In this document: positions 34,315 to 41,463 of the stretch, in pieces
Position numbering within the stretch: the stretch's first letter is position 1
How the letters are laid out: each line of letters begins with the position of its first letter
Assembly (NCBI RefSeq): GCF_004366375.1
Contig: NZ_SOEF01000026.1
Span: forward strand, 1-41,608
Source of the DNA: Halanaerobium congolense
GTDB lineage: Bacteria; Bacillota; Halanaerobiia; Halanaerobiales; Halanaerobiaceae
Direction of reading: 5' to 3'
Length of the DNA stretch: 41,608 nt
Translations under genes and position numbers: made by a program
Notes under the pieces: model-generated
Told to the model about the DNA's origin: nothing
Databases searched by the model: none
The model's input: the letters and a program-made list of their open reading frames with translations, nothing else

Positions 34315-35520
34315 TTAACCAATAATTCCCTGGCTTTTCATTTCTTTAATTTGAGCATCAGTTAAACCTAAACTTTCTTTAAGCACTGAATCAGTATGCT
34401 CACCTTTAGCAGGGGCGTGACTTTTTATTTCTCCTGGTGTTTCGGATAAATGGAATGGAGATCCAGCCACTTTAACTTTACCGAGTCCAGGCTGTTCCAA
34501 GTCTACTATCATATCTCTGTATTTTAAGTTATCATCTTCGACAACCTTATCGACTGTATTAACAGGTGAATAAGGGAGTCCATACTCTTCGAAAATTCCT
34601 TCCCATTCAGCAGTATTTTTTTCTTTTATTCTTTTAGCTAAAATTGGTATTAACTCATCCTTGTTTTCTGCTCTTAATGGATTTGTTTTAAATCTTTCAT
34701 CATCTGCTAACTCTGGCATTTCAAGAGCGTCACAGAACTTTTTCCATAAGCTATCATTTCCAATTGGAGTTACAATATAATTGTCTTTAGTTTTAAATGA
34801 TTGAAACGGAACAATTGTTGGATGTGCTCCACCAAGAGGACCAGGAATTTCACCGTCCATTGTGTATCGAGCAATAGCATTTTCTAAAACAGAAACGAGT
34901 CCATCTACCATTGACATATCAACATGCTGTCCCTTACCAGTTCTATCACGATAGCGTAAGGCACTTAAAATACCAATAACCGCCTGATGGCCTGCCATAA
35001 TATCACCAATAGAACTTCCAACACGGCAGGGTTCTCCACCTTCTGGGCCCGTAATACTCATCAAACCACTATATGCCTGTGCAACCATATCATAAGCAGG
35101 CTTGCTGGCATATTCTTCTAAAGCATCATGTCCGAATCCACAAATTGAACAATATATTATATCTTCTTTTATTTTTTTCATTTCTTCATATGAAAAACCT
35201 AATTTTTTCATTGTAGTAGGACGATAATTTTCTACGACTACATCTGCATTACTTATTAAATCTCTTAATATTTCTTTTCCTTTTTCTTCTTTTAAATTTA
35301 AAACAATACTTTTTTTATTGCGGTTAATACTAATAAAATAACCACTCTGCTGTTCTCCAGCTTCATCTTCAACAAAAGGACCAAACTGTCTTGAATCATC
35401 ACCAAATGGTGGCTCCACCTTAATAACCTCTGCACCTAAATCTGCCATAATCATTGTGGCAAATGGTGCTGCCAGTACATGGCTTAAATCAATAACTTTT
35501 ATACCATCTAAAGCTCCCAT
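34315..35520 (-). CDS. Class III (CaiB/BaiF, Frc-like) CoA-transferase
   Basis: A 401-residue CoA-transferase of the Frc/CaiB family. The catalytic Asp is D173 in S-S-I-G-D-I-M-A-G, matching Asp169 of formyl-CoA transferase. Other family features are D-L-S-H-V-L-A-A-P-F, V-I-K-V-E-P-P-F-G-D-D and V-E-N-Y-R-P. It moves CoA between carboxylic acids. Being transcribed with MadLM, it most likely activates malonate (or a similar dicarboxylate) from succinyl-, acetyl- or another acyl-CoA; this is inference. The start has a TAGGAGGAG site. Confidence 0.85.
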   Translation of the reverse strand: MGALDGIKVIDLSHVLAAPFATMIMADLGAEVIKVEPPFGDDSRQFGPFVEDEAGEQQSGYFISINRNKKSIVLNLKEEKGKEILRDLISNADVVVENYRPTTMKKLGFSYEEMKKIKEDIIYCSICGFGHDALEEYASKPAYDMVAQAYSGLMSITGPEGGEPCRVGSSIGDIMAGHQAVIGILSALRYRDRTGKGQHVDMSMVDGLVSVLENAIARYTMDGEIPGPLGGAHPTIVPFQSFKTKDNYIVTPIGNDSLWKKFCDALEMPELADDERFKTNPLRAENKDELIPILAKRIKEKNTAEWEGIFEEYGLPYSPVNTVDKVVEDDNLKYRDMIVDLEQPGLGKVKVAGSPFHLSETPGEIKSHAPAKGEHTDSVLKESLGLTDAQIKEMKSQGIIG

Positions 35521-35577: not shown

Positions 35578-35637
35578 TCGACCACAAGTCAATTTGACTC
35601 ATAGTCGAATTATATAATAAATCAATTATTTTGTCAA
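35578..35637 (-). promoter_or_regulatory. Perfect promoter with 31-bp operator for the malonate operon
   Basis: TTGACA (35632-35637), a 17-base spacer and TATAAT (35609-35614), both consensus. Directly after the -10, 35578-35608 is a 31-bp symmetric element: TCGAC, four bases, AGTCAA, A, TTGACT, four bases, GTCGA. A further TTGACT follows downstream. It covers the transcription start, so it should be a repressor site; no cognate regulator gene is adjacent. Confidence 0.8.
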
Positions 35638-35650
35638 CAAATTAACAAGC

Positions 35651-35668
35651 CCCGGTATTGAAACCGGG
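35651..35668 (-). terminator. Terminator of the usher-like gene
   Basis: A CCCGGT/ACCGGG stem with a moderately T-rich tail on the minus strand, about 32 bases past the stop codon. Confidence 0.65.
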
Positions 35669-35699
35669 ACTAAACAGAGCATTGCTGCCCTGGGATAAC

Positions 35700-38600
35700 T
35701 TAATCTCCATAAATCAAAGCAATGTCTAATTCTCGGTAATCAAGATTATCTTCTGTAATAAATATTTCAAATTGATAACCATTTTGAGAAATTAATCCAG
35801 CTGGTAAAGAATCCTTTAAAATCTCTAGCTGATGGTTACCCAGTGGAATATTTTCAAAGTAATATTTGCCTCTACCATCTGTATAATCTTTTTTATTAAG
35901 CTTTTTTATCGACAGTCCCACCCAGTCCAGATATTCTTCATTCTCATTTTTCTGCCCATCAGCATTTTTATCTAGATAAACACGGCCACTGATAGAACCA
36001 TTAATTGTAACTCCATAATTTTGATGAATATTTTGATTATATCTTACTTTTACAAATACATTTTCAGTTACTGGAGTATAGTCTGCAGTTAGATTGTTGT
36101 AATCAAAGTCAAGCAGATAAATATCATTAAAATATGGTTTGAAAATATAAAAACCCTCTTCATTTGTTCTGGTTCTCAAACTTCCAAGCCGCATTGGCAT
36201 ATCAGGTAATCTGCGCTCATTATCATCCATCTGGCCATTATAGTTTTCATCCAAAAATACATATCCGGTGACCATTGATCGAGGTTCGCCATCTGAAAAT
36301 CTAGTAGGAACTGTATTGCCACCACTAAAGGATAAAGCATGAGAATAAGAGATCATCGCATAGTTCTCATATTTTGACTCTCCAAAGAGATAGCCTTCAT
36401 ATTCACGACCAATTTCAACTATTATCCCACTTTCATTATCTCTTATTTTATCATAAACAAAACCATAAGAGATACCACTTTCTCCAACTTCTGGTAGAAT
36501 ATATTCAGCAAATAATTGGATATAACCAGGGTTATTGGGGAAATAATAATTACCACTTAAATAAACAGACTGATAGTTACGATTTAGATCAGCTAAAAAA
36601 TTACTGCTGCCAATATATTCTGTCTGATAATCTTTTAATTCAGCAGATATACTGTAATCAGAATTAAAATAATAATCTAATTTCAAACTCGTTGTTTCTT
36701 CAATATCATAATAATCATCATCTTCATCATCTTCATCGTCATCCTCGTCTTCCTCTTCATCTTCATCTCTTTCTGCCTTTAAAGTAATTGTAGTTCGATC
36801 TCCCAAATAAAGACTCGTCTGTAGATTATACTGTCGTTCATATGTTTCTCTACCGCTGTCAAACTCTTCTTTTTCACCTAAAAAACTGCCAGAAAACAGA
36901 AGGGTTTCGCCAAGTCTTTTGTAAAAATCAAATTCTGCTTCATATTCTTTAGAATCATCTCCATCCACTTTACCAATAAAATTATTATTAATATATAAAT
37001 CATTAATAGTTTCTTCATTTTCATAATAATCTAAATCAGTTAAAAATCTGTAGCTTGAGCCATAGCGGTTCAAATAAATATTAGCACCCTTTTTTATAGT
37101 ATCAAATGAACCGTATTTAAAAAAAGTAGAAGGACCAAAAGGATTAGCTATTTCTCTCCATATTTCTGCTCCATCAAATTCTTTAACTTCTTCATATCTA
37201 AAAGAAAAAGCAGAATAATTACGCCAATTTGGGTTGTCAATAATTTGAAAAATATAATAATCTCTCTTATATTGATCATCAAGATTATCAAAGCCATTAT
37301 ATAAAGATTCTTCATTACCTATAGTTGGCTGAATACTCAAGCGCTCTGTTAGATCCAGCTTAAAATTGAGAGATTTTTTCTCCCCCTCTTCTCGATCCAG
37401 ATATGCCTCCAGTTCAGGTGGAATATAGGCATAAATTCCTCTAAAGTAACCATTCATCAGAGAATAAAGGAAAGAAGCCTCGGCACCACTTTCTAAACTT
37501 TCAATTTCTCCACCTACTAAAAAATCTAAATTTAAAACTGTTCTTCCACCAAGACGAATATTAAAACCTGTAACTGCAGACAACATCTCATTTTCTACTT
37601 CTTCTTTATCGTAGAATGCAGCTTCTAAATTATAAGTTAAATGCTCAGTTAAAGCATAATTAGAGCGCAGAGCTGCAAAATTACCCTGCCAGTCTTCAAA
37701 ATCTGTTTTTCGATCACGATAACGACCAGCAAAAAATTCGATCTCCTTCACTTTTGGCTGTAAAATATCTTTACTCCCAGACAGATATTTAATAATTTCT
37801 TTTTTGTTTCCATCTTTCGAAATGATCTCAATTACTATTTTATTTAAATAATTTGCTCTTAATTCCAAATTATTAACCTCATAAACACCATCTTTTTTGA
37901 TGACTTTTTTTACTATAAATTTATTGTTAATAAAAATAGTCACCTCATCTTCAGCCTTAGTATCAACACTCACTGCTGTATAAGGAATTAATTTGAATTG
38001 CAAATTTTCAGGGAATTTAAAATAAATACCCTGCATATCATTTCTTTTAATGGTATCTTTAAAATAAAATTCATGATCACCAATAATTATTAAACGATTA
38101 TTTTCTCTGTTACTGAACTTAATTTTATCTAAAGTATAATCTGTCACTTCCAAATCTAAATCATATTCAAAGTCATTATTAATATAATAAGCCCAATCAT
38201 TATAACGACCATAAAAATTTAAATCTCCTCTAATTTCTTTTCTTTCTTCTGTTAAAAGATCATCTTCCATATTTAATTCAATCCGGTAGTGAATAGAGCT
38301 TAAAGTTAGACCTTTATTTGCACTTCCTAGAACTTCTTCTTTTTCTGTAATTTCTTTTTTTTCTGCTTCAGTTTGATCTTCTTGATCTTCAGAAAACTCT
38401 TCTAAATAATCGTCTACAAAGTCACCACTAATAATAAGTTCCTGTAAAGCATTGTTCCAGACTATATTATAATCGCCTAAATAGGAAAATACTTTTTTGG
38501 AAAGATAAAACTCTCCTCCAACAATTAGAGGAGGTTGATCATTCCATTCCTCCTGATCTAAGTATTCTTTTTGGTTCAAATCAATTCTTACTTCTCTTTC

Positions 38601-38888
38601 ACCTTTTCTTAAACTTAGTAAACTAATATCTCTTTTAAAATTTAGATCCACCTCAAGGTAAGGGGACAGCAAATTTGCTGGCAGTAAAATATAATCTTCT
38701 TCTGTAAAATAATATAATTCAAAAAAAGGATCACTATCTACAGTTATCTCTCCGTCCATTAAAGTTAAAAGCACTATACTACTTTCTATTCCTGGTCGGC
38801 TCTCTTCTAATTTTTGAGCAGCTAAATTAGAACTGCAGCTAAATAAAAAAATCATTATTAATAAATAGGTTAATATAAATTTTTCCAC
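35700..38888 (-). CDS. Usher-like outer-membrane protein with B-repeat domains
   Basis: 1062 residues, starting at GTG (38886-38888) with an AGGTGGTG site. A signal peptide covers 1-24; L-F-S-C at 15-18 might instead be a poor lipobox. Residues ~25-155 resemble the copper-amine-oxidase-N/usher N-terminal type fold (Y-I-L-L-P-A-N-L-L, L-I-V-G-G-E-F-Y-L). Residues ~190-870 are alternating polar/aromatic strands of beta-barrel character, including a hairpin module (I-F-I-N-N-K-F-I-V-K-K) typical of ushers. An acidic run of Asp/Glu lies near 705-729. The last ~190 residues hold two SdrD-B-like domains (D-E-N-Y-N-G-Q-M-D-D near 881 and D-K-N-A-D-G-Q-K-N near 972). With a PapD-like chaperone just upstream, it is probably the assembly usher. 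Direct homology to PapC is not obvious, so this is inference. Confidence 0.65.
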   Translation of the reverse strand: MEKFILTYLLIMIFLFSCSSNLAAQKLEESRPGIESSIVLLTLMDGEITVDSDPFFELYYFTEEDYILLPANLLSPYLEVDLNFKRDISLLSLRKGEREVRIDLNQKEYLDQEEWNDQPPLIVGGEFYLSKKVFSYLGDYNIVWNNALQELIISGDFVDDYLEEFSEDQEDQTEAEKKEITEKEEVLGSANKGLTLSSIHYRIELNMEDDLLTEERKEIRGDLNFYGRYNDWAYYINNDFEYDLDLEVTDYTLDKIKFSNRENNRLIIIGDHEFYFKDTIKRNDMQGIYFKFPENLQFKLIPYTAVSVDTKAEDEVTIFINNKFIVKKVIKKDGVYEVNNLELRANYLNKIVIEIISKDGNKKEIIKYLSGSKDILQPKVKEIEFFAGRYRDRKTDFEDWQGNFAALRSNYALTEHLTYNLEAAFYDKEEVENEMLSAVTGFNIRLGGRTVLNLDFLVGGEIESLESGAEASFLYSLMNGYFRGIYAYIPPELEAYLDREEGEKKSLNFKLDLTERLSIQPTIGNEESLYNGFDNLDDQYKRDYYIFQIIDNPNWRNYSAFSFRYEEVKEFDGAEIWREIANPFGPSTFFKYGSFDTIKKGANIYLNRYGSSYRFLTDLDYYENEETINDLYINNNFIGKVDGDDSKEYEAEFDFYKRLGETLLFSGSFLGEKEEFDSGRETYERQYNLQTSLYLGDRTTITLKAERDEDEEEDEDDDEDDEDDDYYDIEETTSLKLDYYFNSDYSISAELKDYQTEYIGSSNFLADLNRNYQSVYLSGNYYFPNNPGYIQLFAEYILPEVGESGISYGFVYDKIRDNESGIIVEIGREYEGYLFGESKYENYAMISYSHALSFSGGNTVPTRFSDGEPRSMVTGYVFLDENYNGQMDDNERRLPDMPMRLGSLRTRTNEEGFYIFKPYFNDIYLLDFDYNNLTADYTPVTENVFVKVRYNQNIHQNYGVTINGSISGRVYLDKNADGQKNENEEYLDWVGLSIKKLNKKDYTDGRGKYYFENIPLGNHQLEILKDSLPAGLISQNGYQFEIFITEDNLDYRELDIALIYGD

Positions 38889-38902
38889 AATGATTTCACC
38901 AC

Positions 38903-39700
38903 CTAATTAATCGTGATTGGTATCTGGTAGTCTGCCGTCTTATCTGTATTATAAAAACTAAACTGCAGCATTAATTTATAATCACCTGGTTTAAGCCTTT
39001 CAGCAAGCATAAAGGTAATCTTTCTTTTATATTCCGGTAAAATAATAAACTCCTCATTAAATTTTTCTTCCATTACTAATCTGTTTTCACTATCCACTAC
39101 TCTATAAGATAGATAGTATCTAAAATGTCCGGTACCTGCATTTTCCACACTTAAAACAACAGGCTGTGGTTCAGGAGGATATGTTTTATAAATTCTAAGC
39201 CCGGTAAATTTAAAATTATATTTAATATCTGCTGGCACTAAATAAATAACTGTTCCAATCTGAGTAATTATTTTTGAGCCTGTCTGAGCATCTGTAAAAT
39301 CTGTTTCATGTTCAAAAAAAACTACACCTCGTCTTTCTTTTTCAGGATTTTCTGGGGTATTAATTGTGAAACGGACTATCTGTTTTTTCCCGGGCTGCAG
39401 AATAAAAGAACGTGGGTTAAACTTAATTAAACCAGCAAGTGAATAATTGCTTTTACCAGCTTCAAAAAATAAAAGTGCATCTTTCTCATCTAAGCTCCAG
39501 TCATTTAAGACTGCTGTTAATTCTACTGCTTCTTCCCCTTTATTAACAACCTCTATAGTTCCTGTACTGCGGCTGCGGGAAAGTGAATTAATAATTATTC
39601 TGGCAGGTTCTACTCTAACAGTTGCTCCAGCATTAGTAGAAACAAAAATAATAAAAAATAAAAGTACTATTAAAATATATTTTTTATTAATTCTCCTCAT
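38903..39700 (-). CDS. PapD-like periplasmic fimbrial chaperone
   Basis: A 265-residue secreted protein with a signal peptide (1-26, cleavage near N-A-G-A). The N-terminal immunoglobulin-like domain shows the chaperone pattern: V-E-P-A-R-I-I-I, T-G-T-I-E-V-V-N-K-G, a tryptophan strand (L-N-D-W-S-L), F-N-P-R-S-F-I-L-Q-P-G-K-K-Q-I-V-R-F, then R-R-G-V-V-F-F-E. A second beta domain follows. Such chaperones hold pilin subunits in the periplasm by donor-strand complementation. It sits between the pilin-like and usher-like genes, 14 bases from the latter. The start has a GGAAGGAG site. Confidence 0.8.
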   Translation of the reverse strand: MRRINKKYILIVLLFFIIFVSTNAGATVRVEPARIIINSLSRSRSTGTIEVVNKGEEAVELTAVLNDWSLDEKDALLFFEAGKSNYSLAGLIKFNPRSFILQPGKKQIVRFTINTPENPEKERRGVVFFEHETDFTDAQTGSKIITQIGTVIYLVPADIKYNFKFTGLRIYKTYPPEPQPVVLSVENAGTGHFRYYLSYRVVDSENRLVMEEKFNEEFIILPEYKRKITFMLAERLKPGDYKLMLQFSFYNTDKTADYQIPITIN

Positions 39701-39739
39701 CGAAAAAACTCCTTCCTGAATTACTCTACTTAAAATATT

Positions 39740-39765
39740 CAGGGGCTGATAAAAATCAGCCCCTG
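39740..39765 (-). promoter_or_regulatory. Intercistronic hairpin after the pilin-like gene
   Basis: A perfect 11-bp stem (39740-39750 and 39755-39765) with a 4-base loop lies between the pilin-like stop and the chaperone start. No T-run follows, so it is unlikely to be a full terminator. A role in 3'-end protection of the pilin message, favouring the abundant subunit, fits better. Confidence 0.65.
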
Positions 39766-39802
39766 CCTTGTAGTGGAAAATCTTATATACAAGTTCAGAG
39801 AA

Positions 39803-40624
39803 TTAGATAGTAACTGCTCTGAAAGTAATTTGACCATTATACTGACCCTGAGCTGTGCTCATGTTATAAGGAACTCTGAAATTATGCAATGCTTCTAATT
39901 TATTTCCAGCAGATCCATTATAAATAACTTCAGTATTTGGAGCTGCTGCACCAAAGGTATCATATCCAGCTAACCAGCTAGAACCTGAATCAACACTTGA
40001 TCTCATATGCATTGGCAGTAAATTGGAACCTTGAGTTAAAGCAGCTGCTTCTACTTCATATCTGTAGTCATCATTACTCATTACTTCTACTGCAAAGATA
40101 TCACAGGCACCAATATAAACCCCTGTACCTGGGTTAATCTCAACATTAGTTCCGTGGCCTAAAGAATTCCAATTTTCATCAAGATAGCCACCAATTTCAT
40201 TGTCAAATACTAATTCATACCCAGAAGCTGTTGTTGATCCTTCAGCACCAGAGCCATAACTTATAACACCGGTTGTTCCCTGGTTACCTGTTAATTTCAT
40301 TTCTAAGAAACAGGGAATATAAGCTTTAGCATTAATTGTGATTTCTGCTTTTTGCTTTGCAGAATTTGCTGTATCAGGAGTGTAATTACGATTTAGATCT
40401 TCTAAGTTTGTATAATTACCAGGATTAACTGCATCTACATCATGATAAAATACTAATCCATCGTCTCCTACATGAGCATCATAATTTCCATAATAGTCGT
40501 TCCAGGTGTCAGTGTCATCCCATGAAAATGGATTATCAAAAACACCCGCATATTGAGCCATTGCCATTCCACCAAAAGCAAGTACAAAAACCATTGTTAA
40601 AGCCAACCAATAAAATTTTCTCAT
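39803..40624 (-). CDS. Pilin-like major subunit, secreted
   Basis: A 273-residue exported protein with a clear signal peptide (1-23, M-A-M-A cleavage site). The mature part is rich in Asp, Asn, Gly, Ser and Tyr with few lysines, and has one Cys pair (in Y-I-P-C-F-L-E-M and Y-I-G-A-C-D-I-F). It ends in a strand G-Q-Y-N-G-Q-I-T-F-R-A-V-T, the kind of C-terminal strand seen in spore-coat-U/fimbrial subunits. The AAGGAGG site is the best in the operon and an mRNA hairpin follows the gene, both suggesting high expression. No database family is recognised with certainty. Confidence 0.6.
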   Translation of the reverse strand: MRKFYWLALTMVFVLAFGGMAMAQYAGVFDNPFSWDDTDTWNDYYGNYDAHVGDDGLVFYHDVDAVNPGNYTNLEDLNRNYTPDTANSAKQKAEITINAKAYIPCFLEMKLTGNQGTTGVISYGSGAEGSTTASGYELVFDNEIGGYLDENWNSLGHGTNVEINPGTGVYIGACDIFAVEVMSNDDYRYEVEAAALTQGSNLLPMHMRSSVDSGSSWLAGYDTFGAAAPNTEVIYNGSAGNKLEALHNFRVPYNMSTAQGQYNGQITFRAVTI

Positions 40625-40662
40625 TTTTCTTCCTCCTTGTTTTTTTTGAATTTTAATTAAAA

Positions 40663-41463
40663 TTATTCAATAATAAAGTTAAGCTGATAATCTTTCTGAC
40701 CTGCTTTGATTTCCCTAAAATCATCTATTCTCAAGACATATATTAATTCTGCATCTCCACCAGGTAATTCTGTAGTTTTATTTCCCTGAGCAATTATTAC
40801 AGCCTCTTTCCCAATTTTAATGAACTCATCCCGCGAATTACTCACACTACCATTACCTTTAAACTCCTTTAATTTAATCTCTAAGTCTTCTCCACCTTCA
40901 TTGTTAACCTTTAGAGTCCAAGCTTTGTTGGCTCTGATTAATAACTTTGATTGTCCTGAACTATAGATCTGCTGGGAGAAATTACCCTCTGAATATTTTA
41001 TATTTGGATTCATATCCCCGCCTGCTCTAACTTCCATTATAGTAGGAATTTCAAAGTCAATTTTTAGTCTTTCTTCCCCCCTTTCTGTTTGAATAATTAA
41101 ATTATTTCTGTATAAACCTGGAGAATAAGCAGACTGTAACCGTAGTTTAAAATGAATTTTATTGGAATCTAAAAGATTCCTTTTATTAAGTTGAATAAAT
41201 GATTCTGAAAGAGGAACCGCACCACTTCTAGTCAATATAAATAAATTGTGAGCAGATATCTTATCCTTTTCTGCCATAAAAAATTTTTTTTCCACCTTCA
41301 AAGCTAATTGATTTAAATCTCTATCGGCTCTGATCGGAAGTGAAAAATCAAATTGATCATTCTGCATAATATTCAAAGTTCCTAGATAAACGCCTGCTGA
41401 ATCAACAGTACCTTGAAACAAAAAAATCATAGAAAAAATAACCAAAATTATTCTAATTCTCAT
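40663..41463 (-). CDS. Secreted two-domain beta protein, possible minor or tip subunit
   Basis: A 266-residue protein with a signal peptide (1-23, V-D-S-A). It appears to have two beta-rich domains. The first ends in P-G-L-Y-R-N-N-L-I-I-Q-T, like the closing strands of spore-coat-U domains; the second ends in D-Y-Q-L-N-F-I-I-E. It has no cysteines. It is the first gene of the surface-fibre operon, 38 bases before the pilin-like gene, with a GAGGTG site. A tip or minor subunit, or a second chaperone, would fit its place; neither is proven. Confidence 0.5.
   Translation of the reverse strand: MRIRIILVIFSMIFLFQGTVDSAGVYLGTLNIMQNDQFDFSLPIRADRDLNQLALKVEKKFFMAEKDKISAHNLFILTRSGAVPLSESFIQLNKRNLLDSNKIHFKLRLQSAYSPGLYRNNLIIQTERGEERLKIDFEIPTIMEVRAGGDMNPNIKYSEGNFSQQIYSSGQSKLLIRANKAWTLKVNNEGGEDLEIKLKEFKGNGSVSNSRDEFIKIGKEAVIIAQGNKTTELPGGDAELIYVLRIDDFREIKAGQKDYQLNFIIE

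Follow-up and report, generated by a model that had tools for sequence, protein, structure and literature searches.

Chaperone-usher (CU) pili have been described as Proteobacterial, and archaic CU systems are known from Proteobacteria, Cyanobacteria and Deinococcus-Thermus (PMC4654587). A proline is invariant in the chaperone superfamily, and an arginine that anchors the subunit C-terminus is confined to chaperones of the archaic and alternative types (PMC4654587). In a search of open-access papers, none was found that links CU pili to Halanaerobiales or other Firmicutes in more than a passing mention. Here we describe a locus in Halanaerobium congolense (contig NZ_SOEF01000026.1; the window analysed is the whole stretch of 41,608 nucleotides) that is highly likely to be a complete four-gene operon for CU pili, belonging to a divergent branch of non-classical (archaic-like) type and carried by a diderm Firmicute. 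The assignment is made because usher fold, plug, chaperone fold, signature residues, profile homology, synteny and the outer-membrane markers LpxC and Omp85 agree. The genes, found as open reading frames (ORFs), are:

41463 to 35700, minus strand: four co-directional genes in the order P0004-P0003-P0002-P0001 (ORFs)
40663..41463, minus strand: P0004, two-domain secreted protein of 266 aa, likely a tip adhesin or initiator (ORF, family A9, pilin-profile match)
39803..40624, minus strand: P0003, pilin-like main subunit of 273 aa with a lineage-specific N-terminal extension of ~65 aa (ORF, family A8)
38903..39700, minus strand: P0002, periplasmic PapD-like chaperone of 265 aa (ORF, family A7, AlphaFold2, Foldseek, hhalign, signature residues)
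35700..38888, minus strand: P0001, usher-like outer-membrane assembly platform of 1062 aa with a GTG start (ORF, family A6, AlphaFold2, Foldseek, profile)

The four ORFs are real genes, since other Halanaerobium species have homologues in the same order with 34-61% identity, and Firmicutes further removed have them with ~12-45%. A preliminary description of this DNA had named four co-directional genes and noted signal peptides; the genes lie where it placed them, all on the minus strand, and a hydrophobic, signal-peptide-like segment opens each of the four proteins. Models, fold searches and profile matches upheld its labels (two-domain, pilin-like, PapD-like, barrel-like), and its proposal of a divergent CU-like operon in a diderm Firmicute stands. 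The suggestion of an independent or archaic branch was broadly right, as the chaperones form a supported branch of their own and carry the archaic/alternative-type residue.

The usher and its chaperone

The AlphaFold2 model of P0001, built on an alignment of 18 relatives, has a predicted local distance difference test (pLDDT) score of 81 and can be divided as follows:

38424..38786, minus strand: usher N-terminal periplasmic domain, copper-amine-oxidase-N-like, residues 35-155 (PF07833 in 17/18 members; AlphaFold2)
38013..38309, minus strand: barrel strands 1-6, residues 194-292 (AlphaFold2 model)
37776..37982, minus strand: plug domain, residues 303-371, between strands 6 and 7 (AlphaFold2, Foldseek, profile)
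36324..37748, minus strand: barrel strands 7-30 as predicted, residues 381-855 (AlphaFold2 model)
36018..36317, minus strand: C-terminal sandwich domain 1, SdrD_B-like, residues 858-957 (Pfam, AlphaFold2, VIA-align)
35703..36017, minus strand: C-terminal sandwich domain 2, SdrD_B-like, residues 958-1062 (Pfam, AlphaFold2, VIA-align)

When the model is compared with the PDB by Foldseek, the top 18 matches are all FimD or PapC (E 3e-25 to 2e-10), and the best non-usher barrel is LptD (E 2e-8). VIA-align places 624 residues on full FimD, from model residue 163 to 1058, with Z 16.1 against the FimD pore; other barrels, porins included, come near the usher Z, but over at most ~430 residues. The N-terminal domain is barely covered by the fold search and resembles PF07833. 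The strand plan consists of six strands, a small separate sandwich (303-371), 24 further strands and two C-terminal sandwiches. This is the plan of an usher, because the plug follows strand 6 and the two sandwiches follow the barrel. The preliminary description had taken a plug and ~24 strands as the mark of an usher: the plug is where ushers have it, and the strand number departs from the expected one, with 30 in the model.

All 30 predicted strands are kept in 15 of the 18 relatives, and ~18 residues per strand in P0001 is consistent with that number. In relatives L068 and L022 the paired strands 16-17 are missing, as are strands 22-23, wholly or for the most part. Could the barrel have grown by whole hairpins? 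This is a testable evolutionary lead. L022 is also of interest in itself, as it holds a third CU-like operon (L022:5779-11296) with a 1096-aa usher-like protein that is without two barrel hairpins and has an extra C-terminal domain.

Sequence comparisons were made with family profiles, A6 for the usher, A7 for the chaperone, A8 for the pilin and A9 for the P0004 family. Pfam detects on P0001 alone Cu_amine_oxidN1 (just under cut-off) and SdrD_B-type domains, and likewise on its relatives; across 299 genomes of the phylum, PF00577 gave no match over cut-off. PF00577 does match L064, a member of the family, with E 1.6e-4 when genomes were searched and 0.0016 with hmmscan. Conversely, A6 picks from 398 proteobacterial genomes ORFs of 800-1100 aa over the region from strand 5 through the plug to strand 8, where matches were taken as ushers only at model positions ~186-445 in ORFs of that length; many other matches were rejected, being merely SdrD_B domains of giant adhesins. 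Two of the ORFs so picked are PF00577 ushers (L116, 3e-19; L118, 3e-32). In a controlled search among roughly 100 ORFs, A6 gave these two domain E values of 2e-9 and 2e-7 in the region of the barrel start and the plug, and no unrelated ORF scored. Profile against profile, A6 matches six proteobacterial ushers at E 1.2e-29, part of the score coming from shared SdrD_B domains. The hhalign comparison with single-sequence FimD aligned the plug at E 0.036; decoys scored equally high, so that it is not evidence alone. At the level of sequence, then, homology to PF00577 ushers holds through the P0001 family and not through P0001 alone. What Pfam and NCBIfam report for the usher is SdrD-like adhesin domains and no usher family; loci of this kind are therefore likely to be misannotated, and surveys of CU distribution are probably underestimates.

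The chaperone P0002 is modelled with a pLDDT of 91. Its top Foldseek matches are WxLIP of Enterococcus (9i25/9i1y, E 7e-13), followed by CfaA, EcpB, CsuC, CupB2 and PapD, mixed with other immunoglobulin-like proteins; VIA-align also places WxLIP first and then nearly all pilus chaperones. That WxLIP is the best solved-structure match hints that WxLIP and the CU chaperones share an origin, a second lead that can be tested. By hhalign the chaperone profile finds EcpB as its best Escherichia coli match (P 4.5e-7, clearly above decoys), with no sequence match to FimC, and A7 matches archaic-like proteobacterial chaperones at E 2e-21. Weak profile matches among 20 chaperones are to WxLIP_PGBD in 15 and to PapD_N in six. 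Single-sequence PDB searches yielded weak or no matches except EcpB at E 0.18.

Pro96, the CU-wide proline, is kept in 20/20 chaperones, and position 124, equivalent to Arg89 of CsuC and EcpB, is basic in all 20 (R in 15, K in 5). The register of Arg124 was set by the motif E-x-R/K and by the spacing from the proline (28 versus 29-30), hhalign having placed it one column off. P0002 thus carries the carboxylate-anchor residue of archaic and alternative chaperones.

Subunits, proposed assembly and possible pilin excess

Donor strands of CU subunits sit near the mature N-terminus. Alternating hydrophobicity in the pilin family peaks at residues 92-114 (4.7 versus a median of 1.2), immediately ahead of the conserved core, and the P0003 stretch is a putative N-terminal donor-like strand. 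It lies near the mature N-terminus in the shorter relatives L063 and L068; in the other pilins an extension of ~40-70 residues, long and acidic, precedes it. The pilin profile A8 matches the C-terminal (second) domain of the P0004 family at E 2.2e-4. P0004 therefore has the two-domain form of tip subunits, its second domain being a pilin domain. The subunits are as unfamiliar as the preliminary description had supposed, since no known subunit family matches either the pilin or P0004. The spore coat U family (SCPU, PF05229), which it had put forward for a profile search, has no match among the 18 pilins even with E values up to 5 allowed, and WxL-family profiles match neither the pilins nor the P0004 family. 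The remaining features of the locus are:

40307..40351, minus strand: putative N-terminal donor strand and A strand of the pilin, KAEITINAKAYIPCF (alternating hydrophobicity)
39740..39765, minus strand: terminator- or attenuator-like hairpin between pilin and chaperone genes, of imperfect terminator look (kept by position, not sequence)
35648..35671, minus strand: terminator-like hairpin after the usher gene (sequence)
35609-35637, minus strand: perfect TTGACA-17-TATAAT promoter-like site between the usher gene and a CoA-transferase-like gene (34315-35520)

How might the four proteins work together? Together they very probably build hair-like surface fibres. P0002 would meet the secreted subunits in the periplasm, lend a strand for folding and hold the subunit C-terminal carboxylate via Arg124. 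P0001 would receive the chaperone-subunit complexes and replace the chaperone's strand with the N-terminal donor strand that the next P0003 supplies, and the fibre would pass through the barrel once the plug moves aside. P0004 would start the fibre and sit at its tip, where a role in adhesion is conceivable.

The hairpin in the gap between pilin and chaperone genes is strong in most of the loci, though its sequence changes (median z -3.9; z <= -3 in 15/24), as against a median z of -1.4 in the gap before the pilin gene, with 0/19 at -3 or lower. Partial termination, or protection of the 3' end, after the pilin gene would give an excess of pilin, and the hairpin might in this way allow more pilin than chaperone and usher. 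The label 'abundant' given earlier to the pilin is plausible in view of this conserved hairpin.

Distribution and the host envelope

More than 20 loci of Halanaerobiales and Hydrogenispora-like Firmicutes share the gene order two-domain protein, pilin, chaperone, usher, and the synteny asked for in the preliminary description is thus present. Named carriers are Halanaerobium salsuginis, H. kushneri, H. saccharolyticum and Orenia metallireducens; the others are metagenome-assembled genomes of Halobacteroidaceae, of Hydrogenispora and of UBA/DTU Firmicutes. The operon is present in one copy in the genome of the window (G000). Within the genus it is accessory; a close chaperone homologue was found in 5/11 other Halanaerobium genomes.

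The host genome has LpxC and Omp85. Every operon-carrying genome has Omp85, and every one except an incomplete assembly (G193) has LpxC; three control genomes that lack the operon have neither. The outer membrane of H. saccharolyticum, which carries the operon (L081), has been seen by electron microscopy (PMC5007114).

The chaperone tree unites 21 operon members in a single branch (98/96). A weaker and larger branch (90/75) adds L022, L068 and four further Firmicutes rows, and deeper placement is unsure owing to long branches. A few Halanaerobiales (L023, L024, L025) carry a different CU-like operon, here type B, with pilin, chaperone, an 857-aa usher-like protein, a two-domain protein and a further secreted protein. 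All type B chaperones have R at the position equivalent to 124, and they group with Alteromonas-like ones (100/100). There are therefore at least two CU lineages in Halanaerobiales, as the type B chaperones group apart from the operon branch.

Other fibre-related loci were noted as well. Directly upstream of the CU operon of Halanaerobium saccharolyticum is a curli-like cluster (curlin repeats, CsgF, CsgG; L017:2445-4976), so that two fibre systems stand side by side. Two Halanaerobium genomes have a different operon in the same chromosomal neighbourhood (L018:14614-19532, L026:4610-11296), with pilin-like proteins, a 507-aa WxLIP-HBD-like protein, a short 394-aa secretin and a 440-aa protein; this may represent a secretin-coupled surface fibre or coat system of no known type. 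A regulator gene precedes Halanaerobium fibre operons (L017:521-1684, L026:12618-13793; a BTAD domain is present in that of L026, the one scanned), with look-alikes before the operons of Orenia and Halobacteroidaceae (L082:2688-3914, L093:2093-3274, L094:1882-3054). It may control the fibre operons.

Alternative readings and comparison with known systems

Several points weigh against a CU pilus. The predicted template-modelling score of the P0001 model is just 0.59, and template-modelling scores to ushers are modest (0.2-0.5). By DSSP the model has 6+24=30 strands against 24 in solved ushers, a count that may be a model artefact and is kept as a prediction only. Pfam gives no usher match on P0001 itself and no PapD_N match on P0002 itself, and P0003 and P0004 match neither Pfam nor known subunit families. 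The single best structural match of P0002 is Enterococcus WxLIP, not a pilus chaperone. In the open-access papers searched, no fibres are reported from these bacteria.

Is P0001 then some unrelated large outer-membrane barrel, LptD- or receptor-like, that lies beside a PapD-like gene? The missing Pfam match would fit, and big barrels share many strands by chance, as the porin Z values near those of ushers, over fewer residues, illustrate. In Foldseek, nevertheless, the E values favour ushers by many orders of magnitude, the plug comes after strand 6 and the two sandwiches after the barrel, and the family profile recovers PF00577 ushers at 2e-9; this reading is largely refuted and scarcely credible. 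A diderm version of the WxL surface system, with P0002 as a WxLIP-type protein and WxL-like subunits in place of a pilus, would explain both the 9i25/9i1y matches at E 7e-13 and the excess of weak WxLIP_PGBD over PapD_N matches (15/20 versus 6/20). It is very improbable, as the pilins match no WxL family, the neighbouring gene is an usher by fold and profile, and CfaA, CsuC and EcpB, all pilus chaperones, match P0002 strongly in structure too; moreover, WxL clusters are described as typically containing WxL proteins together with a WxLIP (PMC10599100).

What the barrel and chaperone export is a separate matter. Some CU systems make amorphous, capsule-like layers, and a coat or capsule-like layer of a non-polymerising protein might be displayed here in place of a fibre; the lack of a match to any pilin family and the long acidic N-terminal extension of the pilins are in its favour. 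We consider this unlikely, because every pilin has a donor-like N-terminal strand and P0004 has a pilin domain, both of which speak for polymerisation, and the machinery is identical either way. A bolder proposal, which we hold to be doubtful, if less so than the preceding ones, takes the CU pilus assignment further: the operon would represent an old, separate CU class of diderm Firmicutes with a ~30-strand usher and a chaperone that is the counterpart of WxLIP, and the WxL/WxLIP system of monoderms would be a remnant after loss of outer membrane and usher.

As a CU operon, syntenic in Halanaerobiales and Hydrogenispora-like Firmicutes, the locus extends the pathway to diderm Firmicutes, which are central to the question of an outer membrane in the Firmicutes ancestor. 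Among known systems, the WxLIP/WxL system of monoderm Firmicutes shares the chaperone fold and the weak WxLIP_PGBD profile matches, and differs in its subunits, as the Halanaerobium pilins match no WxL family. WxL cluster hosts are Gram-positive, and we know of no usher described for these clusters. For type 1 and P pili, FimD and PapC are the top structural matches of the usher model, whereas FimC has no sequence match and usher identity is ~10%. The E. coli common pilus, of the alternative type, provides in EcpB the best E. coli match to the chaperone profile, with the proline and arginine positions common to both; by hhalign its usher EcpC has no match to the usher profile, and its subunits are unrelated by sequence.

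CU-like operons of Alteromonas and other Proteobacteria (L103, L114, L115, L117) resemble the Halanaerobium one in the usher: theirs likewise bear SdrD_B domains without a Pfam usher match, that of L103 is also Cu_amine_oxidN1-like, and A6 matches the four at 1e-11 to 1e-18. Their chaperones, in contrast, group with the Halanaerobiales type B and not with P0002, and the L114 pilin (the one scanned) is DUF4402-like, unlike P0003. The SdrD_B ushers without Pfam match in L103:5155-9845 (Alteromonas), L114 and L115 form a wider group of overlooked CU systems.

The archaic (sigma) CU pili, such as Acinetobacter Csu, show the same usher plug after strand 6 with C-terminal domains, the same CU-wide proline and basic residue at the Arg89 position of the chaperone, and the same combination of a two-domain subunit with a main pilin that has an N-terminal donor-like strand. 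The Halanaerobium operon differs from them in having no PF00577 (P0001) or SCPU match, in the copper-amine-oxidase-N-like N-domain, SdrD_B-like C-domains and 30 predicted strands of its usher, in encoding the two-domain protein first and in the long N-terminal extension of the pilin. The CU pathway itself is thus known; the host group, the usher end-domains, the predicted strand number and the subunits are new.

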